From Cymodocea nodosa (taxonomy: Eukaryota; Streptophyta; Magnoliopsida; Alismatales; Cymodoceaceae), in the NCBI GenBank assembly GCA_036874045.1, contig JAZBRI010000010.1, positions 4,856,001 to 4,920,000 on the forward strand: a stretch of 64,000 bases of DNA, read 5' to 3'. Below the pieces are notes generated by a model. That model had not been told where the DNA came from, ran no database searches, and was given only the letters and a program-made list of their open reading frames with translations. Of the stretch, positions 10,648-55,547 are shown piece by piece. How positions within the stretch are numbered: position 1 is the stretch's first letter; each line of letters begins with the position of its first letter. A program made the translations under genes and the position numbers.

Positions 10648-10664
10648 CCCCAGCAACGGTGCCA
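10648..10664 (-). other. Primer binding site, tRNA-Asp type (G1)
   Basis: On the plus strand CCCCAGCAACGGTGCCA matches the 3' end of plant tRNA-Asp (CCCCGGCAACGGCGCCA) at 15 of 17 positions. It lies just inside the 5' LTR, separated by an AGTTTTA-like spacer as in Athila elements. Confidence 0.8.
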
Positions 10665-12147: not shown

Positions 12148-13005
12148 AGTACCTATGATCTATGCCTAATTCTTCACAAAAGGTATCCATTTGATCATTA
12201 TCAAATTCTGTACCATGATCACTCCTAAGTTTTTGAATTTTAACATTTTGCTCATTCTCAACTTTATTACAGAATATCTTAAATATTTCAAAAACTTCAG
12301 TTTTATTAGCTAGAAAATAGACCCAAGTAAATCTAGAATAGTCATCAACTAGTACAAAAGCATAATGTTTACCTCCTAGACTAGTTGTCCTAGTAGGTCC
12401 AAATAAATCCATATGCACTAGTTCTAATACTCTTTTGCTTGTTATTTCATTTAAACTTTTAAAAGATGTTTTATGTAATTTACCTAGTTGTCATGCATCA
12501 CACATAAACTCTTTTAAGTACTTAATACTAGGTAATCCTCTAACTAGATTCTTTTAGACAGCTTTTGTAATAATTTTAAGTTTGAGTGTCCTAGCCTTCT
12601 ATGCCATAAAATAACTTCATTTGATTTTTCAATTAAGCAAGCATTGTCTTTAATAATATCAGAAGGCAAATTCAGAATACAAACAGATCCTTTCTTGTAT
12701 GCAGTAAATAAAACTTCGTTTGTAGACATGTCCATAATTTTATAGGAATCTTTTTCAAAAATTACTCTGTAAAACTTCATTAAAACAGGAACACTCAATA
12801 AATTAAAACCTAAGTTTTCCACTAATAAGACATCATTTATAAAGCATTTCTCAGTTACTTGAACCTTGCCAGACCCAAGGATATTTGTTTTGCTTTTATT
12901 TCCAAAGATAACTTGTCCATTCTTGGTCTTTGTTATTTCTATAAGTAATCGCATATCTCCAGTCATGTGGCTGGATACTCCACTGTCCATTATCCATTTT
13001 GATTT
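12148..13005 (-). pseudogene. pol: Protease and integrase start of SIRE-B
   Basis: Copia aspartic protease with WIMDSGVSSHMTG (about 12995; family motif DSGAS). The pre-integrase segment LWHRRLGHSNLKLLQKLS follows at about 12600. The integrase core begins VHMDLFGPTRTTSLGG (first catalytic Asp, about 12410) and reaches IQKLRSDHGTEFDND (second Asp) before G1 interrupts it after GIDHRY at 12148. A one-base shift near 12545 and a TGA in the zinc-finger segment (about 12498) also break it. Confidence 0.8.
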
Positions 13006-22089: not shown

Positions 22090-22101
22090 TGGTATCAGAG
22101 C
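22090..22101 (+). other. Primer binding site, initiator tRNA-Met (Tork-like)
   Basis: TGGTATCAGAGC, the standard copia primer site, four bases after the LTR. About 550 bp of leader without a supported ORF follows before the polyprotein start at 22652. Confidence 0.9.
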
Positions 22102-22651
22102 CAGGTTGGACATCTCTGGGTTTGCATCTGAAGTTTCGAAGAGATTGATCAAGGTTCAAGCCATTTCCGCAAGGGATCTCTCCATTGTTGTAACTACCGT
22201 CGTCGCCAGCACCAGTCTACACACTTTGACACCAAGTCGGGCGCCTTCCTTGTCCATGCTCCGTTGCATCTCAAATTTTGAGGACGTGTAGTAAGCATCC
22301 TGAAATTCCTTCCTTTAAAATTTCATGGTCAGAAGTTTCGTATTCAGAGAGATACAACAGGAGGCGTCTAGTTAGGGCACAATAGTTTTCTAGACGAGTG
22401 ACTCTTTGATTGTCAGATTTTGGGCATTTTATGATTGTGGTTTTGTGCTTGGTTTGTGCGAGTATTTGCTACTGTTTTGTGATAAGTAGTGTGTTTGGCT
22501 TGTGGCTGATTCATTTTGTTGAAATCAATAGTTTTAGTAGCATATTGTTGTTGAGATATTGCTTGCTATTGTGTATCTTGCCGTAGAATTGTGTTTGTTG
22601 AAGTCACATTGTATCTCATGTGTATTGCTAGTTGTTTGTTGTTTTGAAAAC

Positions 22652-25600
22652 ATGAATACTTCGAGGTTGAAGATAGAAAAGTTTGATGGTAAGAATAGCT
22701 TCAGCTTATGGCAAATTAAGATGAAAGCACTTCTAAAGCAACAAGGTATTTGGGCTCTTTTAAATAAGGAAACTACTCTAAACAGAAATTCACTAGAGTT
22801 TGAATTGCAAGAGGAGAAAGCTCACTCCACCATCTTGTTGTATTTGTCTGATGAAGTTATAATAGAAGTTGCTGATGAATCTACCTCATTAGGTCTTTGG
22901 CAGAAACTTGAGTCATTGTATATGACTATGTCTTTAACAAACAAGTTGTTGTTAAAGCAGAGACTGCTCTCTTTAAAGATGATAGAAGGTGTACCTCTTA
23001 AGCAGCATTTAGATCAGCTAAATGCTATTCTGATGGAACTCAAGAATATTGGAGTAATCATAGAAGATGAAGATGCAGCTCTTATCTTGCTTTGTTCACT
23101 CCCATTGAGTTATGAAAAGTTTGTTCAATCTTGTGTAGATAGAAGACATTCAATTACACTGGAAGAAGTGAGGTCCGGCCTTCATTCCAAGGAGCTTAGG
23201 CACATGATGAATGGTAGAAATGAGGCAAGTGGTGTTGGCCTCTTAGCTCAGCAGCAAGAGAATAGGGGAAGAAGCTAGAGACAAGGTGGAGGGAAGAATA
23301 GAAGCAGAAGCAAGTTGAAGGGCAAGTACTCTAGGAATACTTGCCATTACTGTAAGGAGAAAGGACACTAGAAATCACATTGTCCCAAGCTTATGAACAA
23401 AGGAAAGGCTACTATGGCAGAAACCAGTTCTACGTCAGGTGATGACTTTTCTCTTACAGTTTGTTGCAGTGCCTATTCTGATGATTAGTGGATTATGGAC
23501 TCAAGAGCTTCACATCATATGACTCCTACTAGGGAGTATTTTGACACCTAGGAGCAGGTAGAGGGTGGTCAAGTGACTTTGGCCAATGATGATATGTGTT
23601 CTAGAGTTGGTGTGGGCACTATAAAATTTAAGCTGCATGATGGCACAGTTAGAATTCTGGAGGACGTTTGGCACGCCCCAAAGCTTGGAAAAAGTATGAT
23701 CTCACTAATGGCCCTTGATGCTAAGGGTTATAGATATACAGATGGTGAGGGGAAGATCAACATATTGAAAGGCTCATTAGTTGTTATGAAGGGAACCAAA
23801 TCTGGTCCCTTATACATTTTGCAAGGCACTCCAATTGTTGGCGCAGCTACGTCAGCTATATCTGATCAACAGAATTTTTCTGTCATGTGGCACTCAAGGA
23901 TGAGTCATTTGGGGCAGAAAGGAATGCAAAAACTGAGTAGTCTAGGCAAGTTTGATGGGCACAAGGTTGCTTGTATTAACATGTGCAAGCATTGTGTCTT
24001 TGGCAAACAGAAAAGAGTGTCATTTGCACATAGTCAGCATAGCTCCAAGGGAGTTCTTGATTATATTCATGTTGATTGTTGGGGGCCTTCACGTCAACCT
24101 TCTATTGCAGGTTCTAGATATTTTCTTTCTATTATTGACTGTCATTCAAGGATGAATTGGGTTTTCTTTTTGACACACAAAAGTGAAGCTTTTTCTTGCT
24201 TCAAGCATTGGAAGAAGCAAGTAGAAAACCAAACAGACAGAAAGGTAAAATATCTTAGAACTGATAATGGTCTTGAGTTTTGTTCTCAAGAATTTTATAA
24301 CTTTTGTAAAGATGAAGGCATTAGACAACATAACACTATCAGGTATACCCCTCAGCAAAATGAAGTGGCTGAAAGATTGAACAGAACACTCCTAGAAAAG
24401 GCACGTTGTGTGCTGTCTCATGTAGGTTTGAGCAAGAAGTTTTGGGTAGAGGCTGTTAACACAGCTTCCTATCTGGTGAACAGGTCCCCTTCTAGTGCCT
24501 TAGATGGGAAGATACCTCTTGAGGTATGGTTGAAAAGATTTGCTAGTTATTCAAAGCTCAGAATTTTTGGGTGTCCAGCTTACTATCATGTGAGCAATGG
24601 CAAGCTAGAACCACGTGCCAAGAAAGGCATATTTGTGGGCTATGGTGTTGGTGTAAAGGGATATAGGATATATGATATTGAATCTCACAAAGTAATATAT
24701 AGCTGTGATGTTACTTTTGATGAGAATTCTCTTTTGCAGGCAACAGATAAACTAGCAGGTGAAACACCAAAAATTGAGCACACCCTTCCTGAACAGATGG
24801 AGATAGATGACGCACAGTAGCCACCTATCACTAATCAAGTTGAAATTAGAGAAATCTCATCTGAAACTTAGGAAAATGAAGTTGAGGAGGAAGAGGTGGA
24901 GCAACCACCACCAAGAACCATTGGCAAAGATCGTCCTAGAAGAGACGTTAGACCTCCTATTAGATATGGCTACGATAGTTTGGTTGCTTTTGCCTTACAA
25001 GTAGCAGTTGAGGTGGAGGATTCTGTTGATCCACCTACATATGAAGCTGCAATGAAAGATTCAGAAGCTGATCTTTAGATGTCTGCTATGGAGGAGGAAC
25101 TCCAATCTCTCCATAAGAACAAGACTTGGGAACTAGTGAAACGTCCAAAGAACACAAATATTGTTAGTTACAAATGGGTCTATAAGAAGAAGATTGGGAC
25201 TCAAGGCAGCGCAAGTGTGCAGCACAAGGCAAGATTAGTCACCAAAGGTTATTCACAGCGAGAAGGAGTTGACTTCAATAAGGTATTTGCTCCTGTTGTA
25301 CGTCATACATCTATTAGAATTTTGTTATCCATTGTTGCAGCATAGAATTTAGAATTGGAACAACTAGATGTAAAGATGACGTTCTTGCATGGTGAGTTGG
25401 AAGAAAATATTTGGATGGAACAACCAACAGGGTTTGTGGTGAAAGGTAAATCTGATTGGGTGTGCAAATTAAATAAGTCCTTGTATGGACTTAAAAAGTC
25501 ACCACGACAATGGTACAAAAGGTTTGATGCCTTTATAGTTAAAGTTGGTTTTAGACGTAGCAACTTTGATTCATGTGTATATGTTAAAACTCTTGATAAG

Positions 25601-26587
25601 AGTACACATGTTTATTTGTTATTGTATGTTGATGATATTCTTATAGCTGCGAAAAATATCGAAGTGATACAAGAGCTAAAGGACACATTAAAATCAGAAT
25701 TTGATATGAAGGATCTTGGTCCAGCTGGCAGAATTCTTGGAATGGAGATTAGGCGTGAAAGAAATTCTGGTAAGCTGTTTTTGAATCAACAGAAGTATAT
25801 TGAGAAGATCCTTAGCAGATTTGGTATGGCTTCATGCAAAGCCATTAGCACGCCTTATGACAGAAATGTCAAATTGTCATCTACGATGTGTCCACAAACT
25901 GATTCTGAAAAGCTTGATATGCAGCAAGTTCCTTATGCACAGGCAGTTGGAAGTCTTATGTATGCTATGGTATGCACTAGGCCTGATCTGGCATATCCTT
26001 TGAGTGTTGTTAGTAGGTTCATGTCCAATCTGGGCAGGGAACATTGGAAAGCAGTTAAAAGGATATTCAGATATTTGAAAGGAACTCCAGGTGTTGGCTT
26101 GATGTATGCAGCAGATCAAGGTTGTACTATGGCTAGTTATACAGACTCAAACCATGTAGGTGATGTTGATAGAAGGAGATCATTATCTGGTTATGTCTTT
26201 ACATTTGTAGGTTCTATTGTGAGTTGGAAATCAACTCTTCAGCCTATGGTATCTCTGTCCACAACTGAGGCTAATTATGTTACTATGAAAAAAGCTGCAA
26301 AGGAAGGGATTTTGTTGAAAGGCTTACTTGGAGACTTTGGTTGGCGCATCAATAAAGTTGATATCTTCTGTGATAGTCTTAGCGCCATTTGTCTCTCCAA
26401 AAATAATGTCTTTCATGATAGAACAAAACATATTGATATTAAGTATCACTTCCTCAGGAATGAAGACAGGATAAAGATTATGAAGGTCAACACAAAGGAC
26501 AATCCAGTTGATATGTTTACAAAGGGCATTGTTGAAAGCAAGTTCAAGCATTGCTTGGACTTACTCAATGTCTATTGCTGCTGCTGA
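22652..26587 (+). pseudogene. gag-pol: Gag-Pol polyprotein of Tork-like copia (eight TAG stops)
   Basis: One frame of 1312 codons from ATG 22652 (MNTSRLKIEKFDG) to TGA 26585. The more upstream in-frame ATG at 22559 lacks family similarity. Domains: Gag (to about 23275); zinc knuckle CHYCKEKGH*KSHC (about 23340-23385); protease WIMDSRASHHMTP (DSG changed to DSR, about 23490); pre-integrase VMWHSRMSHLGQKG; integrase Asp (IHVDCWGPS), Asp (LRTDNGLEF), Glu (NEVAERLNRT) at 24060-24380; RT with SLYGLKKSPRQWYKRF and YVDDILIAA (25620); RNase H with CTRPDLAYPLSVVSRF and TTEANYV, ending MFTKGIVESKF. Eight internal stops (23276, 23369, 23486, 23549, 24818, 24869, 25076, 25343) are all TAG, with no frameshift. 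Two sit where relatives usually have Trp. Confidence 0.92.
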
Positions 26588-32641: not shown

Positions 32642-33751
32642 ATGTATCAACCATCTACTTATATTGTAACATTTGTTTGTTGTAATACAAAACATTTCAA
32701 TATATATATATATGAATGTTTGAAGCAAAATGTTGTTGAATTTGTATGAAAGTGAATACAATATTTAATTCAAAATTGTACTAAATGAAAATATTATATA
32801 TATATGTGTTAAAACTGTTTGAAGTTTTTTCAAAAATTTTATGAATGACATAGTTAAATGCACGATGATTAGATAATATCTAAACATATCTGTATATTGA
32901 AAAGTAAAATTTAATTTCTACATTGCTAGTATTGAACTAAAAGTTAAATGTAAAGCACTAATTTCATATTCTAACTTTTATATTTAAGTTTATTTGAGTT
33001 GATGACATGTAGGAAATGAAATATTGAAGTTAAGATGAAAAGTAAGTTTTAAGAAATTTGCCAAGTGTTAAATTAACGAAGTAAGTTCATGGAGTTAACC
33101 TTAACTCCATGAGGTCAATATTAAAATATAAGGTCACTCCATTGAGTTATCTGTAACTCAATGAAGTAAGTTCATGGAGTTAGCAAATAGAAGTTATAGA
33201 TAGTCCGTTGAGTTATCTGTAACTCAACGATGTTAGTTCGTGGATTAAGCTAAATAGTTATTCTTTTAGCTAGGAATAAAACTCTATGGGTTTAGTAGTT
33301 ACTGAAATTTGAAATTAGAAGTGGAACACATGTCCATAAAAATAGGAACCATATTGCACGTTACAAGACACGTTCTTGCAACGAGATTCATTTGCCTTAT
33401 GGACGTGCATTATAAATATAGAATAGAATGCTATTTACTAATTACTAGCACTTGAGGAGAGAAAAGAAAATTCATTAGGGAACTGGAAGGAGAAGCAACT
33501 GATTCAACTCATCCGTCAACAACTATTTATTGAGAACAAAGCTTCAATCTAGTATGTAATTAATCTTCTACAATTTTACTTTATGTTAAGAGTTTATGAG
33601 CACATGGACTTGTTCTCCTAGCACTAAATAATTAGTAAGAATACTTAAACGACATTATTTAACATAGAAGTATACTGAAAATTTTTTTGAAGATGACTTT
33701 AACGAAATCCTTAGGGGTGTAGTTAACCTTTCTTTAAAAGAGAACGAAAAT
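32642..33751 (+). promoter_or_regulatory. Promoter-like spacer before gag of G2
   Basis: Counterpart of 2895-4006. It has inverted TAACTCAACG / CGTTGAGTTA-type words at 33075-33240, TATAAATA at 33411, then about 340 bases of leader. A TA-repeat lies at 32701-32712. Whether it drives transcription is inference. Confidence 0.4.
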
Positions 33752-34945
33752 ATGGCTGCTACAATAGAAAAACCATTAGGGGAAATTCTATATCCTAAAC
33801 TAGTTGATGAACCTTCATGTATTCGATTGCCAAACTTTGAGGGAGATAGGTTTAAATTGAAATCTAATTATATTAGTCAATTGCCACACTTTCATGGATT
33901 AGAAAGAGAAGATGCCTATTGTTTCCTTAGAGAATTTAATCGGATTTGTCAAATGATGAAAATGCTGAATATGAGTATTGATGATATTAAACTTAGATAT
34001 ATTCTTTTTGCTTTAAAAGACACAACTAAGAGATGGTTATATACTTTGTCACCTAATTCAATTTCTGCTTGGATTGAATTTTGCTTTGTTTTTCTGGAAA
34101 AATATTATCTAATACATCGAATGATTAAAAAGAAAAAAGAAATATTAATGTGTAGCCAAAAGTAGGGAGAGTCATTTTAGAAATATTTTGAACGATTTAA
34201 AGATTTACCGACTCAATGTCCACATCATGCAATGAGTAAAGTATAATTAATAGGTATAATTTATGAAGGCATAGATGTTTCAACTAAATCTTTATTAGAA
34301 TCTACTTGTTAGAATGAATTTTTAAAATTGTGTAGTGAAGAAGCATGAGCATACTTAAAAAACTTTGCAAAAAGAACTACATAGTGGGAAAATTCAGCTA
34401 GTGCTATTACAGATAAAAGAATATTACCAAGGGGAATGCATGAAATAGATTCAAGCACTATGCTTGAAGTTAAATTAACTAAGTTAACGAAGAAAATTGA
34501 GTAGTTATCATTAGATAAAAAACTAGTAGAAAAGAATGTAAATATTAATGACTTAGATATTATTTATGCTAGAAACTAGAAAGATAACTTTGGAAATTCT
34601 TATAACCCTAATTGGAGAAATCACCCGAACCTATCTTGGAGAAATAACAATTTCCAAGGAGGAGAAAATATAAATGACAAAAATACAAATTATGAAGCAT
34701 TAATTGAACAAAGATCTAGAATAGAGAAGTTAGAAAAGATAATTCAACAATTAAACAACCATTTAGACCATGTATTTGGAAATGCTACCATTCAAAATCA
34801 AAATATGAATAAAAATATACCCCATAGATAGAAGGAATCAATAGAAGTTAGACCTACTAGAGGATTGTCAATACAAGCAGTGCCTAACCTTGTTAATAGA
34901 ACTGTTAATGAAATTGATACCTTCTTTGGGAGGGAAACTGAATGA
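33752..34945 (+). pseudogene. gag: Gag capsid region of G2
   Basis: 398 codons in one frame from MAATIEKPLGEILYPKLVDE to a TGA, with no frameshift. Core: LPHFHGLEREDAYCFLREFN, FALKDTTKRWLYTLSPN, FLEKYYLIH. Tail: NPNWRNHPNLSWRNNN. There is no zinc knuckle. Internal stops: after CSQK (TAG, shared with G1), SF* (TAG; G1 TGG), KV* (TAA; G1 CAA), TC* (TAG; G1 CAA), EEA* (TGA; G1 TGG), TT* (TAG; G1 CAG), IE* (TAG), RN* (TAG; G1 CAG), HR* (TAG, shared). The surviving frame argues that the protein was kept until recently. Confidence 0.8.
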
Positions 34946-35168
34946 AGTAGTATAACTAAAGCAACTTTGTATAATATAGTAAGTAGAAAAATATAAAAAG
35001 AAAAGAAAAGAAAATGTAAGTTTAATTATAATTAGTAGTATCATAGAGTTATTACTTAACTCAACAAACTTAGTCCGTTGAGCTATGACCTAACTCCAAA
35101 AAGGTATGTAAGTAGCTATGTTAATTTTATCTCTACTAAAATTTGTTTATATTACTGAATCACAACAA

Positions 35169-36296
35169 ATGGAATTGATGAAATTACCACTAGATGCACT
35201 AAGGGAAGTATTGAATAACTTATCAGCTAAAGATCTATGTAGATTGTGTTGTGTGTCAAAAGAAATTAAAGAATGTGTTAGAGAAAAATATTTTCATGGA
35301 CTACAAGTTGCAAAGATGACTAATATTAGAGGTGGATTTTTATAGATGTCATTTAATCGTAGTTCAATCAACTATGAATATCTGAATATGGAAGAAAATG
35401 CTGGAATTCCACCTAATACATTAGAAGGAATAAATCATATTATGGGGATAGATGAAGGATTAATTATTTACAGAACCAAACCAAGGTATGCAATTCTGTT
35501 ACCCGATATTTTTATTAGAAATCCTATCACTAGAGAAGAATGGAATATAGGAAGGCCTAATAGATTTGAAGTACTAATTGAAAATTGTGGGTCAGCTTTA
35601 ACATTTTTTGATAAAAATTCAACCATTCCTAAAAAGTTGTATTACTGGAGACCAACTAGAAATTGGGATGAGGATCTATGCTTAAGTGTGTATAATTTTC
35701 TGAATAGATCTTGGACTGAAAATACTATGATATATCTAGGATAAAAAGCATTAATTAACAACATACATGTCATACTTGATGGATATATATATTTAGTCAT
35801 GGATATATCAGTTGCATTTAGATCTAATTTATACATAGTAAGCATAGACAATTATGATGATGACTTTATAGAAATATTGCCTATACCTAATGATATAGCT
35901 GAACCACCATCTGCAAAACATGATAAAATTCAATTAGGAGTATAGTTTAATGAATATGATGATCCTACTTTATGTTTAGTAAGATGGTGGGATGAATTGA
36001 TGAAATTTCAAATATGGATTATGAAAGACCTAAATGAATGGAAGTGGGAAGAGGAATATATTGAAATATATAAAGAAAGAGAAACAACTACATTATCTTG
36101 GAATAGAAAAGGATCTCTTTCTACATTTCAATTCATTAATGGTAATACCCTTATATTTAGTATTGATAACATACTACAAGTTTACAAGTTAAAAAGGAAA
36201 GTAGACTGCATTAAAACAGAATTAATAGCAAGAAGAATTATGCTTAAAAAGTTTGCTTGGACTAACACGTTTATTCCATTTGTCACTACTTTTTAA
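35169..36296 (+). pseudogene. F-box protein ORF carried by G2
   Basis: 376 codons in a single frame: MELMKLPLDALREVLNNLSA, KDLCRLCCVSKEIKECV (F-box, residues about 5-45), then an F-box-associated-like region: FIRNPITREEWNIGRPN, VAFRSNLYIVSIDNYDDDF, LVRWWDELMKFQIWIMKDLN, ending near residue 375. Only three stops break it: TAG 35343 (G1 has TGG), TAA 35742 (G1 has CAA) and TAG near 35946. An upstream in-frame ATG at 35118 exists, but G1 has no matching extension. It lies 223 bp after gag in the same orientation. Known F-box proteins recruit substrates to SCF ubiquitin ligases; the target here is unknown. Confidence 0.78.
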
Positions 36297-38137
36297 TCAT
36301 ATTTTTAAATTGTGGTTTTGTACTTTTAATGTTGTGTGTACTCTGCATTTATTTTTAGAAAAGAAAGAAAAATTTTTAGTTTTTGTTTTATTTTATAAGA
36401 AAAAAACAAACAAAATATTAATCTAATTTGTTAGTATCTGTTTTGGAAAACCAACTAGCTTGTTTGTGAGCCACCAAAGGCATAGGAACTTGGGTTCCAT
36501 ACAAGACACTGATTTAACAATTTATGTTTTGTTGTTAAATGTTATTTTGTTATATATTCTGCTTTTATTTGTGAATGAAAAGTTTTTCAGAATCAAAAGT
36601 TGGAAGATGTTGAAGGAGATACAAAAGAACAAGGTATGTTTGATTACTTGCCCTAAATTTACATTTAAACTTAGTTTGTGGAGTTATTCATTAACTCAAC
36701 GAATTAAGTTTGACGAGTTAGGTACTAAGTCAACGAAACAATACTCATGCTTGCTAATATTTATTGTATTTACTATAAAATCTTTTACATTGAGGAAAAT
36801 GCAAAATATAGGTATGGGGGGGAGGTAATTAGATTAAATCCAAGTAATTTTGTTAATTAGAGGAACTAGGATTGTGCTACAAATTTTCGTAGAAATTGAA
36901 AATTTTTTTATTATGAATTTGCTGTAACTAGTCGAAATTTCCTATAACTATCCAATAATTGAAATTGTAAAATTTTTAAGAACTATAGCTGCTTGAATGT
37001 TATATTTAGAATCTTATATAAGATGCTACAAATTTTACTATTAATACACTGGATATGGTATCTTATGTTTTTATTGAATTTTATGAGTTTAACAGTTTCA
37101 TGATTTTAAAAAAGAAATCAAAATGCTTAACTAAAACTCAATAAATTATCTAAAATCCTGAAAGAGTTGAAATGTTGATTTTGGATTAAATGAAATACAT
37201 ATGATCAAGGATACATTTAATTTGATTGATTAAACTTGTAGAATGATTTATGTGTAAATCTTATTAAACTACAGAAAAAGTATGAGCTTATTGATATGGA
37301 TTCATGTTTTCAAAAAATTATAGAAGTAGGATTATATGAGATTTGTGTTTTATTGCATCTGTATTAATGACATACATATATATACTATGTTGAAAAGGAA
37401 AAAAGAGGAAAAAAAAGAAAAAAACTTTGAGAGTTTATTGATTTGTTTGATCATGAGCCTTTTGTACTTGAGCAGATAGGTATGTAAGGATTATTGACTT
37501 AAAAAATGACTCATTAAATCTAGCAACCTAAGATCTTGATCAAATCTGGGATTGTTGACTGAAAGCTTAATACATGGGTACATTAGAAAGCTCTTTTATG
37601 ATTCAAGATTTTCAAATTAACTTTTAAAGTAAAAATATGCATATACTATTCTAAAAAGATAAAAGTATTTTGTGAAATACAGATTTTTTTTGAATCTAGT
37701 ATATTTTTTGTTATCTAAGATTACAAAAGTATGAATCTAGATTAGACTTTCGAAGTTGTTTATTTGAGATACAATTCATTATTCTTCTTGTTTTAATCAT
37801 ATTGAGTTGGATTATGTTTTGATTCGTATATAGAAATTTATTCTGGAAATCATATTGGAAAATTCAAGATAACAAATGTTTGAAAAGAAAAAAAATGATA
37901 ATATAATTACCACCTATGTGATGCTAGTATATTTTGTATATAATTTACATATGTTTAAACATATTTGCAAGTTGGAGAGGAGAAAACAATGTTAAATAAA
38001 ATTACTAAAAAATGCAGAATATCTTTATATTAATCTAATTTATGTATTCTAAAGAAAAAAATGAAGAATTAGTTCTAGCACTTTAGAAAGACCAAGTAGT
38101 TAGATCTTAGTAGTTTGCTAAGGGACTAGCAAAAGTT
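36297..38137 (+). other. Long 3' non-coding region of G2
   Basis: No supported ORF. It includes a G-rich tract GTATGGGGGGGAGGTAATTA at 36811-36830 (also in G1). From about 36960 to 38000 it aligns with the spacer between RNase H and ORF3 of the copia elements SIRE-C and SIRE-A. Landmark: ATGGGTACATTAGAAAGCTC at 37574-37593, identical at 49393-49412. Confidence 0.65.
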
Positions 38138-38151
38138 AAGTATAGGGGAAG
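38138..38151 (+). other. Polypurine tract of G2
   Basis: AAGTATAGGGGAAG lies immediately before the LTR start TGTTTAGAATG, the expected place for plus-strand priming. Confidence 0.7.
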
Positions 38152-38548
38152 TGTTTAGAATGAAAAAGTGCATAATATTAATGGTTAAATGATGGTTAAT
38201 TGCATAATATTTAACTTATCATATGAGAATTAAGTTATTATGTTATAATTGCACTATTATATGTTTTAATGAAAGAATCTGCATAATTTAACGGAATTAG
38301 CGTTAATTAAATATATTTCTAAACTGTTAGTGAATTACAAGCTTTTTAATTCTTAAGTATCTAAATTTTCTATTATTTCGGAGAGTTACATTTCATGTAC
38401 CGGACAGTTATATTTTAAACGCTTAAAGAATATTTTATTATTTTCTGAAGTACACATGTTGTAACCTTAATGTAAGACTTAAGTAAATGTTTGGTAAGTT
38501 ATCTGCTAACTATCTGAAATGTGTTTGAGCATCAGATAGTTAGGTTTG
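38152..38548 (+). repeat. 3' LTR of G2, truncated
   Basis: Starts TGTTTAGAATGAAAAAGTGC like the other Ty3 LTRs here. It contains TTCGGAGAGTTACA and ATCAGATAGTTAG-type words as in the G1 LTR. Cut at 38548 by a copia LTR in the other orientation. Confidence 0.8.
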
Positions 38549-39090
38549 TGTAGGATCGTTGTATTACAAGAGAGGGGGTGAATTGTGTCTTTAGCAATTA
38601 AATTTACTAGTAGATAAAACAAGAGCACAAAACACTCGTAAATAAAATTCTATTCTTTATAAACTTTAAAGACAGAATTTACAATATCTTTTTAGCTCAA
38701 TTCCCTTCTTAACAGTTTTGATACAGTAATGTCTGATATACAATTTAAATAGGAAAATGAAGTCCTTATTCAAAACTAATTTCAAATTGAATAAAACCTG
38801 ATCTTTATGCATGTAGCTTCTTTCCTTCTTTTTGCTTAGCTTTTGTATCTCTTCTTCTCCAGTTGTTAAATTTTTAGACTTCTTGCATTTGTAGCTCCTT
38901 TTCTGAAATTGCTTGGAATTTCGAACTTCTTCTAATGTTGGAGAATTTTTCTAGATATGAATATTCAAACTTAACTTTTCAGTTAGGGATCTAGATTGAA
39001 TATTCAGACTTGGTTTTTGAGATTGGGATCCTTATTGTAATGTAGCTCGTACTCTCTATTTGTAGTCGAACTATGTCTTCACGTTCAGCA
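38549..39090 (-). repeat. Copia LTR fragment (SIRE-B type)
   Basis: Aligns with the 3' half of the SIRE-B LTR (15131-15670), ending CCTACA on the minus strand at 38549. Homology stops near 39090. It marks the 3' end of a minus-strand copia that landed in the G2 LTR. 39091-39323 is non-coding with no recognised feature. Confidence 0.75.
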
Positions 39091-39323
39091 TGTAAGGAAA
39101 ATTTGCTAAGTACATATCGTTCAAAAAGATATTTTAAAACATGCATAACTTTCATGGATAAGCATAAATTGTTTAAAGAAAAACTGTTTTAAACATAAAT
39201 TGTCAAAAACAATCACATGATCATTAAGTGTAATAAACAGTTTACATAATGCGATTTCTTTACATAAATAATTTTTGGTAACAAATTACAAGAAAGAAAT
39301 CATGCAATACATAATTTTTATAA

Positions 39324-41608: not shown

Positions 41609-43198
41609 TGTTGAGTATTTTGTTTTAATGATGTGTGTTGAATGAAAGTAATCATATTTAATCAATTACTATTGCTTGTGAAAGGAAATTAAAAACATCA
41701 ATTAATATAGGAAAAAGTTTACTAGGAAAAAGTTTACTGATATAAATATTTGTCTATATTGGATCTAGAATTATACTAAGTTAATAACTAGTCGTTTCGT
41801 TGTAGTAATTTCTCATTTAACTAAACGTTAAGATAACGTGTGTTTTTGTTGAAAAACATGATATGTTTTAAAGTTATATCTTCTATATCATAAACAGTGC
41901 ATGTTTAGACAACTCGTTAAGTTAGAGTGTTATTTGTATAGAGGTCACGTGAGAACTTGTTAAATTAGAGGCTTAAAGGTTAAAATAGGTCACATGAGAA
42001 CTCGTTAAGTTAGTGAGTAAAAGAAGAGACGAACTTGTTAAATTAGTGTTGTACACATGGTGAAATTAAAAGTTACGAATGTTATATTGTATCACATGAG
42101 GTGCACATGTTTAACTCATTAAGTTAACATAATTAAACGCGTTGAGTTGCTATATTGAACACTAAGGCAACGTGTTAGGTTAGCATTATAAAACTTAAGT
42201 TGTTATTTTTGCACGTGGTAAAAATCTTTTTATAAAAACATTTGTTTATCGCTGGTTCGTTAACTTATTTGTAACACAATGGAGATGGTTCGTTGAGTAA
42301 TCGTAACACCACGGAGATGGTTTGTTGAGTTAGTGTAATACCATGGACTTAGTTCGTTGAGTTAGCTATAGTACTTGTCACGTGAGTTGGCTCATGAGGA
42401 ATTCGTTAAGTTAGAAATGTTAAGTTATATATTTACTTGTGTTACTCATTTAGTTAACATTAAAGTAACGACTTATTATTACATTTGATGAAAAATTTTG
42501 GACGAGAAAGTTTATTTTGCAAGAAATTTTTCAGAGATCTAGGATTGATGATTAAAGAAAATTCGAAATGTAAACGTGGGTCAGAACGTGTGTATTTCGA
42601 TGAAGGAAAAAGAGAAGATGTGAAGAAGTGGAAAACTAGCAGTGATTAAACGTGGAGGATATGTATGAAATGAAGATACATTATAAAAGGCATAGAATTC
42701 TTGTTGATCAACTATCCCTACACACCAAACGAAAATCTTTTCAAGGATCAAAAACACTCTTCGAGGAAAAGCTCTCAAATGGAAGAAAATTTTGTGAAGT
42801 AGAAAAAGTTAGATTTATGTCACTGAAGATCTGAAGTATCAACAAAAAGAAAATTCGGTGAAGCGGAGAACAACAACATATTCATCATTGAAGAATTGCT
42901 GAAGAAGAAAAAGAAGAAGAAGAAGAAAGATCTAAAACAAGGAGAAATGCTTTAAATTTCGCAAATTAGTTTTCTCTATTTGTTATGAAATTGTATAAAT
43001 GAAACATGGTATCAATATATAATTGCATCTACAATTTTTTAGGAGAATTGAATTGTATATTGTAATTGAAACCTTGAATAAAAATGATTTTATGAAAATA
43101 GTGTCTCGACTTGTTTTTAATTTTGAAGTTTCAATTATAATCGAAAATATTGAAAAACACAATTCACCCCTCCTCTTGTGTAGCTATACGATCCTACA
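41609..43198 (+). repeat. 5' LTR of SIRE-C
   Basis: TGTTGAGTATTTTGTTTTAA ... CGATCCTACA. U3 has repeated AACTCGTTAAGTTAG words (41911, about 42000), CGTTGAGTTA words (about 42290-42365) and CACGTG sites. ATTATAAAAGG near 42680 is a good TATA box. About 41900-42215 aligns with the Ty3 LTR of G3. Confidence 0.9.
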
Positions 43199-43200
43199 AG

Positions 43201-43212
43201 TGGTATCAGAGC
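43201..43212 (+). other. Primer binding site, initiator tRNA-Met (SIRE-C)
   Basis: TGGTATCAGAGC, two bases after the LTR end. Confidence 0.92.
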
Positions 43213-45655: not shown

Positions 45656-48600
45656 TTTGTTTTGCAGGAGGAAACATCATCAAAATGGATCTTGGATAGT
45701 GGAGCATCAAGTCACATGATCGGACAGAAAAGCCTACTGAAAAATTTTACAAATACCAAGAAAGGAAATGTTACATTTGGAAACAAAAGTAAAGATAAAA
45801 TCATAGGTATGAGCAATGTTCAAATAACTCCAACTTGTATTATTTCGAATATACTATATGTAGAAAACCTAGGATTTAATTTGCTGAGTGTTATAAAACT
45901 AATTGAGAATGGATATTATGTAGTGTTTGAAGATAATATATGAAAAATTATTGATAAAAATACAGAGGAACTTAAGTTTATTACTAAAAGAAAAGGTTCT
46001 GTATGTATTTTATCTTTACCTTTTGATGTAGTTGATTTAAATTCATGTTTGCTAGCTGAAACTAGTGATGCATATTTGTGGCATAGAAGGATCGAGCATA
46101 TAAATATGAAACTGTTACATAAACTGTCTAGAAAAAATTTAGTGAGAGGTTTACCAAAGATTAAATACTCAAAAAACTTTGTGTGATGCATGTGAGTTAG
46201 GTAAACTTCACAAAAACTCTTTTAAATCCAAAACTGATATATCAAGTAAGAGAGTCTTAGAACTTATACATATGGATCTGTTTGGACCAACAAGAATCAT
46301 GAGTCTTGGTGGTAAATGGTATGTATTTGTTTTAGTAGATGACTTGTCTAGATACACTTGGGTATATTTTCTAGCATCTAAGACAGAAGTTTTTGAAAAA
46401 TTTAATATGCTCTACAATCTTGTTCAAAATGAACAAAGTGTCTCTATTCAAAAACTTAGGAGTGATCATGGTATTAAATTTGATAATGATAAAATGGATA
46501 ATTACTATATAGATCATGGCATTGATCACAAATTTTCTTTTCCAAGAGCACCATCTCAAAATGGTATTGTTGAGAGAAAGAACAGATCACTTTAGGAAAT
46601 GGTTAGAACTATGTTAAATGAACATAATTTACCTCAAAATCTTTGGGCTGAAGTAGTGAATACAGCTTGTTATGTTATTAACAGAAGTCATTTAAGACCT
46701 CATGTTAATAAAACTCCTTTTGAAATTATGTTTGATAGGGTTCCAAAAATTTCCTATATGAAACCATTTGACTACAAGTGTTTTGTCCTTAACACTAAGG
46801 ACAAAAGAGATAAATTTTAAGCCAAAGTGGATGAAGGAATTTTTGCAGGTTACTCTACTAGAAGTAAAGCCTATAAAGTATATAACAAGACTTCTAGAAC
46901 TATTGAAGAAACCCTACATGTAAGCTTCAATGAAAATTCTTTTAAAGAATCTCAATCTAAAGTTGATAATGATGATATGATAAATTCTCCAAAAGAATTA
47001 GAGATAAATAGAGAGATTGAAGATTTATCTAAGAAAATAAAAAATATGAACTTAAATGATCAAACTAATGATGAAAGTGATGTACCTTCAGATGCTGATG
47101 AGAATATTGAGGAAAATCAGAGAAATTGGCGTTATTCTTCATCACATCCCATTACTCAAGTCATTGGTAATATAAATGAGGGAGTTAAAACTAGAGCTTC
47201 AGTTAATTTAAATAGTTTACGTATGTTTATTTCTATGGTGGAACCAAAGAATATAGAAGAAGCATTATCTGATGAAAATTGGATAGTGGCAATGCAAGAA
47301 GAACTAAATCAATTCATCAGAAATGATGTTTAGGAATTAGTCTCTCCACTAGAAAATTAGTCCATAATAGGTACAAAGTAGATCTTTAGAAACAAAACTA
47401 ATGAGATTAGTTGCACAAGGGTATACATAGGAAGAAGGACTAGATTATGATGAAACATTTGCTCCTTTGGCTAGGTTAGAAAGTATTAGAATATTATTGG
47501 CCTATGCTTGTTATATGGATTTTAAACTATATCAAATGGATGTCAAGAGTGCATTTCTAAATGGTTTAATTAATGAAGAAGTTTATGTAAAACAACCACC
47601 TAGATTTGAAGATATTAAAAATCCTGACTTTGTGTATAAATTGAAGAAAGCCTTATATGGTTTTAAGCAAGCACCTAGATCGTGGTATGAAAGGCTACCT
47701 ACTTTTCTAATAGAACAAGGTTATATCATGGGAAAAGTAGACCATACTCTTTTTATCAAAAAGGATGATAATGATCAGATTGTTGTTCAAATATATGTGG
47801 ATGATATAATCTTTGGAGCAATTTCTAAAAAATTGATAAAAATATTTTCTAAAGAAATGGCTAGTCAGTTTGAGATGAGTATGATAGGAGAACTTTCATA
47901 TTTTCTAGGACTTCAAATTAAGCAAATGGATAAAGGTATATTTTTAAATCAGGAAAAATGTGCAGATGAAATGCTTAAGAAATTTAATTTTAATGATACA
48001 AGGATTCGTGGAACTCCTATGAGTACTTCGTCAAAGTTAGATATTGATGACATAGGAAAATCAATAGATCAAAGAAAATACAGAAGTATGATTGGTTCTT
48101 TACTTTATTTGATAGCTAGTAGACCTAATATTATGTTTGCTGTGTGTGCGTGTGCTAGATTTCAATCTAATCCTAAAGAATCACTCTCAATTGCTGTTAA
48201 AAGAATATTTAGATATATACAAGGAACTAAAAACTATGGTCTGTATTATTCTAAGGATAGTTCAATAGATCTTATAGGATATATTGATGCTGATTACGTA
48301 AGATCTAAATCTGATAGAAAGAGTACTAGTGGCACATGTCAATTATTGGGAAATAACTTGGTGTCATGGTTTAGTAAAAAGCAAAACTATGTAGCACTTT
48401 CAACTACAGAAGCTGAATATGTTGCTGCAGCACTGTGTTGCACTCAGATTCTGTGGATAAGGCAAACTTTAGAAGACTTTGGATTATCTTATGATACAAC
48501 TGAGATTTATTGTAGCAGTAGTTTTGCAATAAATCTTTCCAAAAATCTTGTATTACATTCTAGAGCAAAACATATAGATGTTAGACATCATTTTCTAAGA

Positions 48601-48744
48601 GATAACGTAATTAAAGGAAAAATTAAATTAGGATTTGTGTCTAGTAAAAATCAATTAGCTGATATATTTACAAAACCTCTAGATGAAAATACATTTTGTA
48701 ACATAAGATTAAATTTAGGTAATTGTAGGCTATGTGATGTGTAA
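45656..48744 (+). pseudogene. pol: Protease, integrase, RT and RNase H of SIRE-C
   Basis: Protease WILDSGASSHMIG (about 45690). Pre-integrase LWHRRIEHINMKLLHKLSRK (about 46080), zinc segment CDACELGKLH. Integrase Asp in IHMDLFGPTR, Asp in RSDHGIKFD, Glu in NGIVERKNRSL (46560). RT from 47467: ALYGFKQAPRSWYERL and YVDDIIFGA (about 47800). RNase H to 48744: SRPNIMFAVCACARF, STTEAEYVAAALCC, ending LADIFTKPLDENTF and a TAA. 47467-48744 is an intact 425-codon stretch. Upstream are TGA 45941, a frameshift near 46175, TAG 46594 (SIRE-A CAG), TAA about 46818, TAG 47331, 47358 and 47379, and a small deletion near 47408. Confidence 0.88.
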
Positions 48745-50314
48745 AATGCTTAGACTCCACAAAAGATAAATTTTGTTGATGATGTTGTTTATCTCATAGA
48801 TATTATATACTTATCATAAATATCTAAGTAATATCTAAACTGCTACATAAGATACTATGTATTTATTATAATGTTATAGTAGTATCTTATTGATTTTACG
48901 TAGTTTGTCAAATTTGATGGTTTTCAAAATTTTAAGTGAAAGTGTAAATGAAAAACATTAAATAACTCTGGAATCCTGAAATTTTGATTAAATGTTTTCT
49001 TTGGATCAATGAAAATACATATGTTCATGCATGAATTTGACTTGATTGATTAAACTTGTAGAATAATTTATATGTAAATCATCTTAAACTACTAATCAAA
49101 AGTATGAGCTTATTGAAACTGATTCATATTCTCAATAAAATCATAGACGTAAAACTTGTATGAGATTTGTGTTTTATTGCATCTGTATTAATGGAATACA
49201 TATATACTATGCTTAAAATGAAAAGTGCTTACAAAGTGAAAATCTTTAAGAGTTTATTGATCAGTTTGATAACGAGCCTTTTGTACTTAAGTTGATAGGT
49301 ATGTAAGGATTGTTGTCTTGATAAAGGATTCTTTAAATCTGGCAACCTAAGGTCCTGATCAGATCTGAGATTGTTGATTGAAAGCTCATTACATGGGTAC
49401 ATTAGAAAGCTCTTGTATGATTCAAGCTTTTCAAACTAACTTTTAAAGAAAATTATCAATATTTAATGTTTTAAAAAGAAAAAGTTGTTTCATTAATTAC
49501 AGATATCTTTGAATTGAATATAGTTTCTACCAATATGATTGATGATTTATTGAATCAACATTAGTACTTTTGACAACGTTTATTTGAGATATATTCTTTT
49601 ATTCTCCTTGAGTTAGTCATATTAAGTTTAAAGTTATGTTTTGATTCATATACGGTTGGAATTGATTCTTGAAATCATTTTTGATGAATTAAGGATGACA
49701 AAAATCTTCTAAAAAGAGAATTTAAAGTGTAGTTATAATTAACATCTATATTATACAAATATATTTAAAGTATATTTGTAGGGGGAGGAATTACAATGTC
49801 CAAAACAGATTAATATAATTCAAAATACAAATCTTGGTTAATTTGAGTTTAGTCCTCTTAAGATCTTGATGAAATAATTTAATAAACAAACAAACTATTT
49901 TAGGTTCATAAAAAGAATATTAGAATAGTTTACAATGTTCTCAAGATGATGTTATAAATGTTAAGGTTTAGCTTGTGTGTTGTTTTCGAAGGGTTTCAGT
50001 TGAAAGCATTCGAAACTTGTTTTTGGTAAAGTGTACTAACTAAACACTATGTTATGTAAGGTAATGTGTAAAACTACCTCTAGACAATGTTTTACTCGTT
50101 AGGTTAGTTAACTCAATGAGTTATGCTTAAATTTTTCGGGTACCTTGATTGAATAAACTATATTCAATATTCATTTAAAATCCAAACCTGACTTCTCTAC
50201 ACATTGAGTTAGTAGCCTCAAACCCTATTTAAACACTTATTACACGGGAACTTAGGTTATTCGTAAACTTTGTCTAAAAATCTTTCCTGCTTGTTCCTGT
50301 TACAACCTACGACA
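48745..50314 (+). other. Non-coding spacer of SIRE-C with cross-family homology
   Basis: No supported ORF. About 48780-49800 aligns with G2 36960-38000 and with SIRE-A 18880-17825. It ends in a G-rich TGTAGGGGGAGGAATTAC tract near 49779-49796. Further on (50090-50270) GTTAGTTAACTCAATGAGTT and a CTATTTAAAC box precede ORF3 and may be a promoter. Confidence 0.65.
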
Positions 50315-52591
50315 ATGTTCTCCAAGTTCTACAAAGGGCATGGCAAGGGAAAAGGAAGAGGAAGTGAAAAAGGCAAAGAAATTGTAGTAGATGATGTTCC
50401 TCGTACATGGTTTAAGAAAATTTTGCAAGTTGACAAAAGGTTAGCTCAAATTTATTGTGACTATTTCTTTTCTGAAGAAATACTAGATGAAGTTAGACAA
50501 GAACTTCAGAATACAGCTGACAGTATACAATATATGAGAATACGAAGTAAATATGATAAAAAATATCGCATGAAATGTGCAGAGATAACATTTTTAGAAC
50601 AATATGCTAAATACCTGGAAAAAGGAGTAGGTTCATCAAATAGAATTCCTTAAACACCCATAAATGGAATTAAATTACAACCATTTGAGGAAGAACATGA
50701 CTCTGCAATACCTACACCCTTATTTTCAAAGGACAAACAAACACAGATTATTGTTGATAAAGAAAAAGTTGAAAGTCTTCGAAAGGCTATAGCAATAGAA
50801 AGTGCCTTTGAAGAATTAAAACAAAAACCTTTTTTGGTTCAAATTCAAAAGAAAACAGCAACAATAGCAGAAGAATAGTTGACCTGCTACAAGAGAAAAA
50901 GATCAAGAAAAATGAAGCAAATGAAGATTGTTTCTAAGGAAACAACTATTGTTGTAAAAGAAAAATCAGATGAGGTTTTATTTCCTAAAGGCAATGTATG
51001 TCTAGACATTGTTCCTTATAGTGCATCTGATCAACTCATCAGTTCTGAGCATATAGAAATTGATGAAGATGATGAGACTTTATTTTCTCTTGCTAGAAAA
51101 CTTGAGAAGAAATCCAAGTAAAATATTAGCTAAAGTTTTTCTATTAGTACAAGTCCTGATGATACAAAAATTGAAAAATCAGAGCATCAAGCACCTAATA
51201 TCGAACAAGTTATTGCATATATAATTGACAATGTTGAGGTAGTAACTAGTTCACAGGTTGAATTGTCTAGAGTAGCGGATATTGAAAAAGTTAAGACTCT
51301 AGAAGAGTTTAATGTCAACCAACCTTCTTCAGAATCTATAGAAGTAGAGTCTGAGAATTCATAGCATGTATCAATGGAGATATTTGTTGAACAAAATGAA
51401 CAATTATAGACAGATACACTAGTTGTAGAATTTGTAGAAAAATTGAACTCTGACCATTCTATAGAAACTGAACCAATGAATGTAGAGGATATTGGAAATA
51501 TTCCTAACACTGTTGAAGCTGAAGAATCAAGCTTACATGAACAGCTTCAAGATAATATTTTGATAGAGGAACAAAATGACATTCATTTTGAAGAAGAGGT
51601 TCCTAAAGATGAATTAAACTCTGAATCAAGGCTTCAAGTATCACCTTCTTTGTGTACAATATTACAAATTCAAGGTAATTCAATTCATTTTAGATCTGAG
51701 GAAGCATTACAGAAATACAATAATCTAATTACATGTCAGATTCTGCATGCTCATCCAATAAAATTCAGAAATTTGATGGAAATAAGAGATCTATTTGAGT
51801 TTCAAGGCTTAATTTAATTCTTGCCAATTGGAATGAAATGGAAATAATACAAAGAGCTTATTGCAGCTTTCTATAGCAATCTGGTCAAGAATGAAAATAT
51901 ACTAACAACTCAAATAAATCAACAGGAGTTCACATTGTCTCCTGAATTAATTTTTGAAGTTTTAGGTTTAAGAAATGAAGGTATTGTTGTTACAAACAGA
52001 TTTGACATGGTTAGACAACTGGAATGGGACATTCAATCTTTATCACAGATTCCAGGTGTATATACTGAAATGAGACTCATGGAAAATCTAAATGCAAAGG
52101 CAAGGTTTAATGCAAATATTTTGCATGCCAATTTATTTCAGAGAGTCGGATACAATATGGAAGTCAGCAGAAGTTGTCTATATGCAACCTATGGTCTACT
52201 GAATAAAATTCAAATCAATTGGTTTGATGTTTTTACTTCTCAACTACAGCATATGAGTTCAAAGTTATTTTTTGGTGATGCTGTATGTAGACTCCTTGCA
52301 AGCGAATTGAATTTATCCGACTAGCCCTCTGAAACTAAAGGCATGAGAGCTTTTAGTGTAAAAGATTTACAAAGATTCCAAGCCATGCATCAACCTCAAT
52401 AGCAACAACAACAAACAGAATGTACAAAACATATTCAACCACAACAGCCAAGTTATTCAAATCAACTGAAACAGCAACCCCAGCTACCTCCTTCCCTAAA
52501 TGATGTGCTTAACGACATCAGAAATGAATTTAGGCATCTAGGAGATAAAATATGTAATGCTATCAGTGATATAGTTAGGAGGAATAGATAA
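50315..52591 (+). pseudogene. ORF3 of SIRE-C (putative plant transposon protein-like)
   Basis: ATG 50315: MFSKFYKGHGKGKGRGSEKG, a very basic Gly-Lys start. Then VPRTWFKKILQVDKRLAQIY, a long acidic middle (51440-51640), and a conserved C-terminal domain: MEIRDLFEFQGLI, AAFYSNLVKNENI, VLGLRNEGIVV, ILHANLFQRVGYNMEVSR, IQINWFDVFTSQL, KLFFGDAVCRLLA (51770-52320). It ends with a glutamine-rich tail and FRHLGDKICNAISDIVRR. It occupies the env-like slot between RNase H and the 3' LTR. Stops: TAA 50651, TAG about 50877, TAA 51121, TAG about 51362, TAA about 51815, TAG about 52322 and 52397. I see no signal peptide or membrane segment, so env-like describes position only. Confidence 0.7.
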
Positions 52592-53109
52592 ATGTCAAGT
52601 CATTTGTCTGTTTGCTTGATTCTAAATATAAATTGTAATGTTTGTATTTATTATTTAATTATTTGAACAATACATTTTTTCTGTAAATGTTTACAATTCT
52701 TATTATTGTTTATAGAAAGCTTTGTTGTAAATATGTCTCTTGCTTTATATACTATGTAATCATCTTTTTAATTAATGACAAAATGGGGGAGAGTTGTTAT
52801 AAATTCAAAAGAAGAAGATGATTATGATGTTAATTGTATATATTATAAAGGGAGATGATATTTAAGTGGTTATGACAGATGATAATGTAATCTGAAAGAT
52901 AATTATGTGGTTATTAAAATCTGAAGATACTTATGTAATTATTGACATCTGAAAGTTTTATTTCTAAGAGGTGAATTTTACACAAACAATAGAAATAAGT
53001 TTAAGTGAACTTAAGTCAACAAACTTTGTTGAATTAAAGATTAACCCAATGAAGGTGCTTTGTTGAGTTAAATATATTTCATAATTGATTTAATATGGTT
53101 TTGTCATCA

Positions 53110-53125
53110 TCAAAAAGGAAGAGAT
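53110..53125 (+). other. Polypurine tract of SIRE-C
   Basis: CAAAAAGGAAGAGATT directly precedes the 3' LTR start. Another G-rich stretch, AAATGGGGGAGAG, lies near 52782-52794. 52592-53109 is otherwise non-coding. Confidence 0.6.
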
Positions 53126-53584
53126 TGTTGAGTATTTTGTTTTGATGATGTGTGCTGAATGAAAGTAATCATATTTAATCAATTACTATTGCTTATGAAA
53201 GGAAATTAAAAACATCAATTAATACAGGAAAAAGTTTACTAATATAAATACTTATCTGTATTGGATCTAGAATTATATTAAGTTAATAACTAGTCGTTTC
53301 GTTGCAGTAATTTCTCATTTAACTAAACGTTAAGATAACGTGTGTTTTTATTGAAAAGCATGATATGTTTTAAAGTTATATCTTCTGTATCATGAACAGT
53401 GCACGTTTACACAACTCGTTAAGTTATAGTGTTATTAGTATAGAGATCACATGAGAACTCGTTAAGTTAGAGGCTTAAAGGTTAAAATAGGTTACGTGAG
53501 AACTCGTTAAGTTAGTGAGTAAAAGAAGAGATGAACTCGTTAAGTTAGTGTTGTACACATGGTGAAATTAAAAGTTACGAATGT
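53126..53584 (+). repeat. 3' LTR of SIRE-C, truncated
   Basis: Starts TGTTGAGTATTTTGTTTTGA and follows the 5' LTR for about 460 bp up to AAAGTTACGAATGT, where the G3 LTR begins. Confidence 0.88.
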
Positions 53585-55547
53585 TGTTTAGAATGAAAAG
53601 TGCATAATATTAAGGGTTAAATGATGGTTAATTGCATAATATTTAGCTTATCATATGAGAATTAAGCCATTATGTTATAATTGCACTATTATATGCTTTA
53701 AAGAAGGAATCTGCATAATTTTAGGGAATTAATGTTAATCTCGTACATTTCTGAATTATCAGTAAATTGCAGACTATGAAATTCTTAAGTATCCGAATTT
53801 TTTGTTATTTCAGAGAGTTATGTTTAATATACCAAACAGTTATGTTTTAAATGCTAAAAGAATATTTAGGTGAACAGTAACAACTCATTGAGTTAGGGTT
53901 CTTTTTGTTAAATGATCATGTGCCAACTCGTTAAGTTACAGGTTTAAAGGTATAAAAATATCACGTGAGAACTCGTTGAATTAGCGAGTAAAAACCTTAA
54001 GTTATATATCTGAACTCGTTAAGTTAGATTTATGGACGTGTTGAATTTAAATGCTTTATTATGTCACGTGAGATGTGCACATGGTTAACTCGTTAAGTTA
54101 GCATAACTGTACACATTGAGTTACATGAATACACACTAAGGTAACGAGTTATGTTAGCAGCTTATTTCTTTATTACACGTGTTTTATAGTTAAATCAAGG
54201 AAGTAAGTCCGTTGAGTTATCTATAACTCCATGGACCATTTATTTACTAATATGCTACTATAGCGGTTGCAGAAATAGGACATTCAAAGGAAAACCACGA
54301 TTGCACGTATCACGTAGGAATTCGCTCGTGGAAGGAAGAAGAAATCACCATCGTTGACATGAACGAAGGAAATCCAACCGATCATCTAAGCAGAAGCAGT
54401 TACTACTAAGAAATATAAAAGAAAAGGAGAAAGACGAAGTGTGTGTATGTGTAGAGGTGGAGGATCGTGCTAACTGTAGGTAGCGTCGGAAGTTCCCTGA
54501 AGCTCCACACCACCAACACCACCATCACCATAATCACCAACCATCGGAGGTCTGTGAGGACACTTTCCTGATGTTGGGTCGATTCCGAGCCAAACACGAT
54601 GCTTGACAACCACTGTGAGGAGTGATCACGTCGCAAGAAGGAAAGCCATTTTCACCAAGCACCAACTCATATCTCAAGAGATTGTAAAGCTTCTAGCCTT
54701 GGTTTCAGGTTGATGCCAGTTTACTAAAGAGGAGATCATCTTGCAATTCTGGATTCGCGATTCTATAGGGAGAGGAGGTAGGATTGTAAGTGATTAAGTT
54801 TTCAATGATGTAATCACGTCGCATGTAGTGATGAAAGTTTTTACTGTCGATAGAGATTACTTTTACATTTCACCTTTCGCCCATTTTCATGATCATATCA
54901 AAACAAAAACACCAAAAACAACAAATTATCTATGTTTACATTTCGTATTTAAGTGTTGTATTATTTGTTTTGTACCATGATTAATGTTAGTATTGTCAGT
55001 ATTGAAAATGTTTCATTTTTGTTTGATTCAGAAAATAGAAAATAACATTATAGTTTACTTAAATTGATTAGTTCCTAATACTTAAAGATTTTAATGGTTA
55101 CTGTTTGAAATATCTGAAAGTTAGTGTTGCTGAATGATAAATCTAATATTAACTAGCATTAAAGATGCTTAATGGATGTTATTTACAATCTATGGAACTA
55201 CCCAATGGTTGACCAAATTCCTCTGTAAATAGCAGTATTAAATTAGAATGATAGCTTCGTTGAGTTAATTCAATTCCACAAGGTTAGTTTGTTAAGTTAG
55301 CTATAACTCAATGGAGTGCTTCCTGAATATATAAATTTCATAATTAAAAACGAAATAGTATACAGTTCTTACTCAATTCTCTGTGGGATCGACCTGTACT
55401 TGCACACAAATACAATATACACTGTGCACTTGCAGTTAAAATACAAATTGGATTAAATATATAATTTGTGTGAAAGGTTGTTTATTTACTTCTAAAAGGA
55501 ATTATTGATATAAGTAAGTTTAAGATTTAACTTTTCACAACAATACA
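53585..55547 (+). repeat. 5' LTR of G3
   Basis: TGTTTAGAATGAAAAGTGCA ... AATACA, 1963 bp. U3 (53880-54185) carries AACTCGTTAAGTTAG words and aligns with the SIRE-C LTR. A TATA-like AAATATAAAAG lies at about 54410, followed by a more GC-rich transcribed part (54420-54850). Small ORFs here (for example 54406-54636 minus) are not supported. Confidence 0.8.

Follow-up and report, generated by a model that had tools for sequence, protein, structure and literature searches.

Sireviruses, in the part of the published account that bears on this work (PMC2829016), have a long linker with internal AGGGGGAG sequences and LTRs with repeated boxes; their AT/TG junction is accompanied by an inverted repeat, and their primer site is of the Met type. 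SIRE-C, one of the Ty1 elements analysed here, resembles them in each of these features. In the same part of that account, palindromic boxes are found in 13 of 21 elements and, with one exception, have a CGG-CCG core, whereas the boxes described below are of the AACTC-GAGTT type; and Sirevirus linkers hold several identical AGGGGGAG PPT copies, the last of them at the 3′ LTR, whereas SIRE-A and SIRE-C have one exact octamer each, located before ORF3, and the terminal PPT of SIRE-C reads differently. The Results of that paper, to the extent covered, describe no block shared with Ty3 elements. On the Ty3 side, the sections considered of two reports (PMC11963269, PMC7264820) present elements that, like the family of our copy G2, have a long region with extra ORFs between pol and the 3′ LTR, for which recombination with other genetic material has been considered (PMC11963269). 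Unlike those elements, as portrayed in these sections, the G2 family has a gag-like ORF in the sense direction, an F-box ORF and a block in common with Ty1 elements; the word 'F-box' has no occurrence in either main text.

Recombination of LTR retrotransposons is already described within families and lineages. In the passages that concern us, recombination between distant families of Athila gave rise to new, successful lineages (PMC2410132), a likeness to the present case that is limited by its confinement to Athila ('copia' does not occur in that main text). Likewise, switching between co-packaged RNAs yields chimeric elements in Triticeae (PMC1950507), but the passages considered concern three-LTR complexes of like elements and include no cassette that crosses superfamilies. 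Among the literature matches listed, we recognised no description of a non-coding block shared by Ty1 and Ty3 elements.

The stretch analysed, referred to as the window, comprises 64,000 bases of the 375-Mb genome of Cymodocea nodosa and is a nest of LTR retrotransposons in which insertions within insertions are frequent. SIRE-A and SIRE-C are Ty1 elements whose pol contains rve and RVT_2. In SIRE-C, RVT_2 matches 47431-48741 (1.4e-54), within a Ty1-type reverse transcriptase/RNase H region at 47431-48744 (+), and ORF3 begins at 50267-50653 (+), where no Pfam family scores above its cut-off. The SIRE reverse transcriptase has at least 120 listed relatives of 46-66% identity, and the named ones are nearly all from plants. 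A Met-tRNA primer binding site, TGGTATCAGAGC at 43201, follows the 5′ LTR; the PPT/3′ LTR junction reads GAGAT/TGTTGAG and is surrounded by an inverted repeat with arms at 53104-53115 and 53140-53151 (one mismatch in 12). The octamer AGGGGGAG, described as the Sirevirus PPT, lies at 49780-49787 (+). On the basis of these domains and motifs, SIRE-A and SIRE-C are provisionally termed Sirevirus-like. Between nested Sirevirus-like pieces, 22090-26587 is taken up by another Ty1-like element, which has long open frames and a Met primer site of its own.

G2 appears to represent the 3′ portion of a long Ty3 element. It has no recognised pol domain itself, and contains a gag-like ORF piece at 33668-34165 (+) (Retrotrans_gag, 0.00052, below the curated cut-off), an F-box domain ORF piece at 35112-35342 (+) (PF00646, 3.3e-11), for which no homologue of the 77 residues was found, and the start of a 3′ LTR at 38152-38548 (+). 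At 38549-39093 this LTR is broken by a stretch that matches part of a family-D LTR, D being a second Sirevirus-like family. The Ty3 order of protease, reverse transcriptase, RNase H and integrase is seen in sisters of G2 at 9630 to 6204 (-) and 57464 to 60226 (+), with the protease match and the second rve below the cut-off. The minus-strand sister proceeds from an LTR at 12148 through pol (9630-6204) and a long linker to a gag-like and F-box region that extends to position 8. Elsewhere in the genome, integrase-side sequence is joined to the gag-like region across a gap (locus L064); in L065 it is joined to the gag-tail/F-box region, with the gag domain absent and a further element intervening. 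We note that the gag-like domain and F-box ORF of this family are located downstream of integrase (12148 to 8 (-) and 33668-36296 (+) in the window; L064 and L065), and that the two 5′ ends in the window, after 10664 (-) and ~55556, reach a gag C-terminal/protease-like region within a few hundred bases. Three of four sister copies fetched (L061-L063) have ~850-900 extra bases where the window copy (5097-5099) has none, and a comparison of this segment with the window gave no hit at E 1e-5.

The primer site of the sister at 10664 (-), TGGCACCGTTGCTGGGGA, is two differences away from a string that we take to be of the Asp type. The G2 family thus uses a tRNA other than Met, judged from that sister, as do non-chromovirus Ty3 elements, which, according to the relevant portion of PMC6317226, do not employ tRNA-Met.

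The original prediction held that the region between the F-box and the PPT of G2 aligns with the spacer between RNase H and ORF3 of both SIRE-C and SIRE-A on the corresponding strand, and the alignments bear this out at ~77% identity over ~900 columns. In a blastn comparison of the window with itself, G2 37071-37934 matches SIRE-C 48887-49766 (76.5%, 891 columns, E 5e-169, 591 bits) and G2 37128-38021 matches SIRE-A 18689-17784 (77.5%, 923 columns, E 0, 634 bits), with the strands of the three blocks in correspondence. Among 300 dinucleotide-preserving shuffles of the G2 block, made for the SIRE-C pair, the best reached 38.3 bits against the real 591, which rules out chance similarity in AT-rich DNA. 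Alignments with other copies widen the homology to approximately 37006-38055 (+) in G2, which ends ~100 bases short of the 3′ LTR start at 38152. The counterparts are at approximately 48835-49850 (+) in SIRE-C, downstream of the pol end (48744) and upstream of ORF3, and at 17784-18807 (-) in SIRE-A, where 18689 is the limit from the G2 comparison and 18807 that from other Ty3 copies. Two stretches named in advance as identical or nearly so are both exact: ATGGGTACATTAGAAAGCTC at 37574 and 49393, and GAGCCTTTTGTACTT at 37455 and 49274 (expected near 49275). Identity declines toward both ends of the block, and many of the alignment gaps are not multiples of three, which disfavours a coding block. 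At the start of the block, both families have an inverted repeat, ATAAGATRCTA...TATCTTAT (37018-37066 and 48847-48890).

The block belongs to its host elements throughout the genome. Thirty Ty3-type loci (one being G2) and thirty SIRE-type loci (one being SIRE-C) were chosen as the best by similarity. Of the 29 other Ty3 loci, 27 span no fewer than 1100 bases of the 1313-base interval 36840-38152 (L017 and L025 fall below this threshold), and all 29 other SIRE-type loci span at least 1300 of the 1526 bases of the linker. In our reading of the best nine hits per locus, the block is joined to Ty3 sequence on at least one side in all 29 other Ty3 loci, which rules out local nesting in the window, and on both sides in 26, with L016, L017 and L025 joined on one side. 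A 33-base core has 7067 genome matches at three or fewer mismatches and its control none; 30-mers designed from the two alignments give 2956 and 2581 raw pattern matches with no control matches.

Twenty-one core matches, all exact and all on one contig, were read from among 100 listed. Their flanks are Ty3 in 14 cases and Sirevirus-like in six; the remaining match has a Ty3-type block cut by a family-D LTR upstream and was assigned by block type. Independent insertion of a separate transposon into the ancestors of the two families, a possibility raised along with the original prediction, is very improbable as the origin of the block: the two families are otherwise unrelated, as such insertions would allow, but no free copy outside them occurs among the 21 core matches on that contig, the identity fades toward both ends, and segments of the LTRs are common to both families too. 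Non-coding homology between Ty1 and Ty3 elements, unexpected when first proposed, is real. The two superfamilies have in common, by descent, a non-coding segment that is integral in both, exists in thousands of copies and has a slowly changing core.

A second Ty3 subfamily, T (four copies), is 81-86% identical to the two copies listed of the G subfamily. In a tree of 25 blocks, the SIRE sequences join near the base of the two Ty3 subfamilies, a position that leaves the direction of transfer undecided. As a rough guide only, dS between SIRE-C and D is 0.74 (120 codons), and the Jukes-Cantor conversion for the block gives ~0.3.

The differences between families are unevenly distributed along the block. 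We aligned 28 Ty3 and 31 SIRE rows, including SIRE-A but leaving out L017 and L025 because they are short. Fixed differences occupy 161 of the 965 columns and are strongly clustered, with a dispersion of 2.2 that none of 5000 permutations reached. A conserved core at 37229-37623 (+), with bounds set post hoc, has 33 fixed differences in 390 columns versus 124 in 570 outside, 11 of the 33 falling in the single window at 37379; the longest run free of fixed differences, 52, is unexceptional beside a permuted maximum of 73. The core is slow against both Ty3 subfamilies (the T-S and G-T identity profiles correlate with rho 0.81), and in the G-T comparison the similarity of the 3′ flank almost equals that of the core. 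These observations bear on whether the block is a neutral relic of one ancient recombination, its core slow by chance or as a mutation cold spot. Within families, variation shows a mild unevenness, matched by 68 of 2000 permutations, which together with substitution patterns that lend no support to an RNA fold (see below) would suit such a relic, but the fixed differences are clustered without correlating with that variation (rho 0.15, p 0.41), and slowness against both subfamilies likewise makes this explanation improbable. The smaller divergence of the core than of its flanks, taken with an invariant motif that resembles a splice donor, supports in part a selected cis-acting signal.

That motif, the 17-mer ATAGGTATGTAAGGATT at 37476-37492 (+), is the longest stretch without variation among 20 aligned copies; five of these were obtained through a pattern containing it, the other 15 independently of that pattern. 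SIRE-C has the identical 17-mer at 49295-49311 (+). We provisionally call it donor-like for its resemblance to a 5′ splice site, and ATTAAACTTGTAG, a conserved site at 37229-37241 (+), acceptor-like in the same way. Acceptor-like ends are at 37241 and near 37966, where G2 differs from most of the G copies shown, and the putative donor would be set between them. Splice-like motifs are common in AT-rich DNA. Because the donor-like motif is invariant and the sense orientation constant, we favour a role in RNA processing over a regulatory role at the DNA level; in Ty3, a splice signal would have no clear use, since the block lies 3′ of the last recognised ORF.

The suggestion that the block is a shared RNA signal fares unevenly: the slow core with its invariant donor-like motif speaks for a cis signal under selection, and the predicted fold shows almost no covariation, in a test of low power. 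Pairing of the two best conserved islands produces a predicted long hairpin at 37425-37629 (+), suggestive only, as its bounds were taken from the fold itself. Its z score in 20 sequences ranges from -1.4 to -3.7 in the sense and from -0.1 to -2.6 in the antisense direction, the antisense hairpin being weaker in 17 of the 20. Across the 20-row alignment, 2 of 96 predicted pairs have changes in both partners, and in one of these the changes separate the families. The proposed covariance analysis over many copies lent no support to conserved structure, if with little power owing to the high conservation: in 69 distinct sequences, 1 of 44 pairs has a double change versus a shuffle mean of 1.4; in the same analysis, paired columns vary less than unpaired ones (0.035 versus 0.087). 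Minor alleles at paired sites number 90, of which 34 preserve the pair and 56 break it (G>A 24, C>U 17). Since the substitutions give no support, no conserved RNA fold is put forward. A second candidate, small hairpin B, was rejected: its window z is ~-3, but single-sequence values run from -1.3 to +1.2, and two minus-strand windows reach -3 as well.

In some retroviruses, CTE-like elements lie between env and the 3′ LTR. The block could be a comparable element for RNA export or packaging, given that it precedes the 3′ LTR in Ty3 and that the hairpin is more stable in the sense direction, with less variable paired columns and the two double-sided changes. We consider this distinctly unlikely, because double changes are no more frequent than in shuffles, pair-breaking minor alleles outnumber pair-keeping ones, the hairpin bounds derive from the fold, and no Rfam family matches in the window at the gathering cut-off.

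Homology between the two families extends to their LTRs. A Ty3 LTR segment at 53880-54159 (+) (offset ~296-575) aligns with the SIRE-C 5′ LTR at 41909-42185 (+) (offset ~302-578) at 70.6% over 289 columns, scoring 140 bits versus 33.7 for the best shuffle. The match is present in 12 of 13 judgeable Ty3 loci; the raw count is 14 of 15 loci with that part in reach, of which L015 and L016 were excluded because a nested SIRE LTR explains their matches. AACTCnTTrAGTT boxes (at most one mismatch) are clustered in both LTRs, five per LTR, and number 21 in the window versus one in the reversed window.

Family D has a third shared segment: both copies read carry a 300-375-base piece of Ty3 LTR 1120 bases past the RNase H end, and the match of the G2 LTR to the family-D linker (280 bits versus 33.7 for the best shuffle) is found in 14 of 15 loci. 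The piece occupies 1840-2214 of L067 and 1219-1594 of L068, shortly after the AGGGGGAG octamer (a variant of it in L067). The two family-D linkers read show chance-level matches to the block at most (best E 0.004). The D LTR has matches to the SIRE-C LTR solely at both ends and none to the Ty3 LTR, and the D linker matches neither the LTR nor the linker of SIRE-C.

The LTR boxes raise the alternative of a regulatory module acting at the DNA level, in which block and boxes together would form a promoter or enhancer, before ORF3 in the Sirevirus-like elements and beside U3 in Ty3. The clustering of the boxes in both LTRs, one perfect palindrome of this type before ORF3, the Ty3 LTR piece in the family-D linker and the palindromic boxes reported, in the relevant part of PMC2829016, in Sirevirus LTRs and upstream of env are what such a module would lead one to expect, and promoter action is equally compatible with the shared boxes. 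We nonetheless rate this as rather unlikely: the block has no box in 36996-38152, the LTRs are not enriched in palindromes as a whole, and the best conserved motif of the block is donor-like.

We prefer the reading, about which we are evenly divided, that the block acts in cis as a 3′ non-coding cassette, that a Sirevirus-like (Ty1/copia) and a Ty3 element exchanged it before the sampled subfamilies diverged, and that parts of the LTRs were exchanged too. The exchange may have occurred by template switching of reverse transcriptase or through a chimeric RNA of nested copies. If the switch took place at the 3′ end, linker and U3 would move jointly, and the following cycle places a copy of U3 in each LTR, according to the portion of PMC1950507 that deals with it; provided that the Sirevirus-like partner lacked an ORF3, a single step could then have exchanged block and LTR segment. 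The core would have been retained for a post-transcriptional role, most likely in splicing or handling of the element RNA, in the same sense orientation in both families. As to direction, the AGGGGGAG octamer at the block end, where the Ty3 copies differ, would favour a Sirevirus-like source, and the fact that each of the three shared segments involves Ty3 would point to a Ty3 source. More tentatively, and leaning somewhat against it, we put forward the wider proposal that a transferable cassette of 3′ linker and LTR parts passes between Ty1 and Ty3 elements, with one Ty3 family as the partner throughout, and that its core may perform the same post-transcriptional task in both.

If the wider proposal is true, two unrelated families use a common control signal. 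A shared kilobase together with LTR parts would show that cis modules are exchangeable parts, independent of the enzymes they serve. The pair of families is a natural experiment, in that positions invariant in both mark a signal that two different machineries may need, and it makes the function of the long 3′ non-coding regions of plant retrotransposons testable. Annotation by nucleotide similarity can, in the presence of such segments, mislabel superfamilies.
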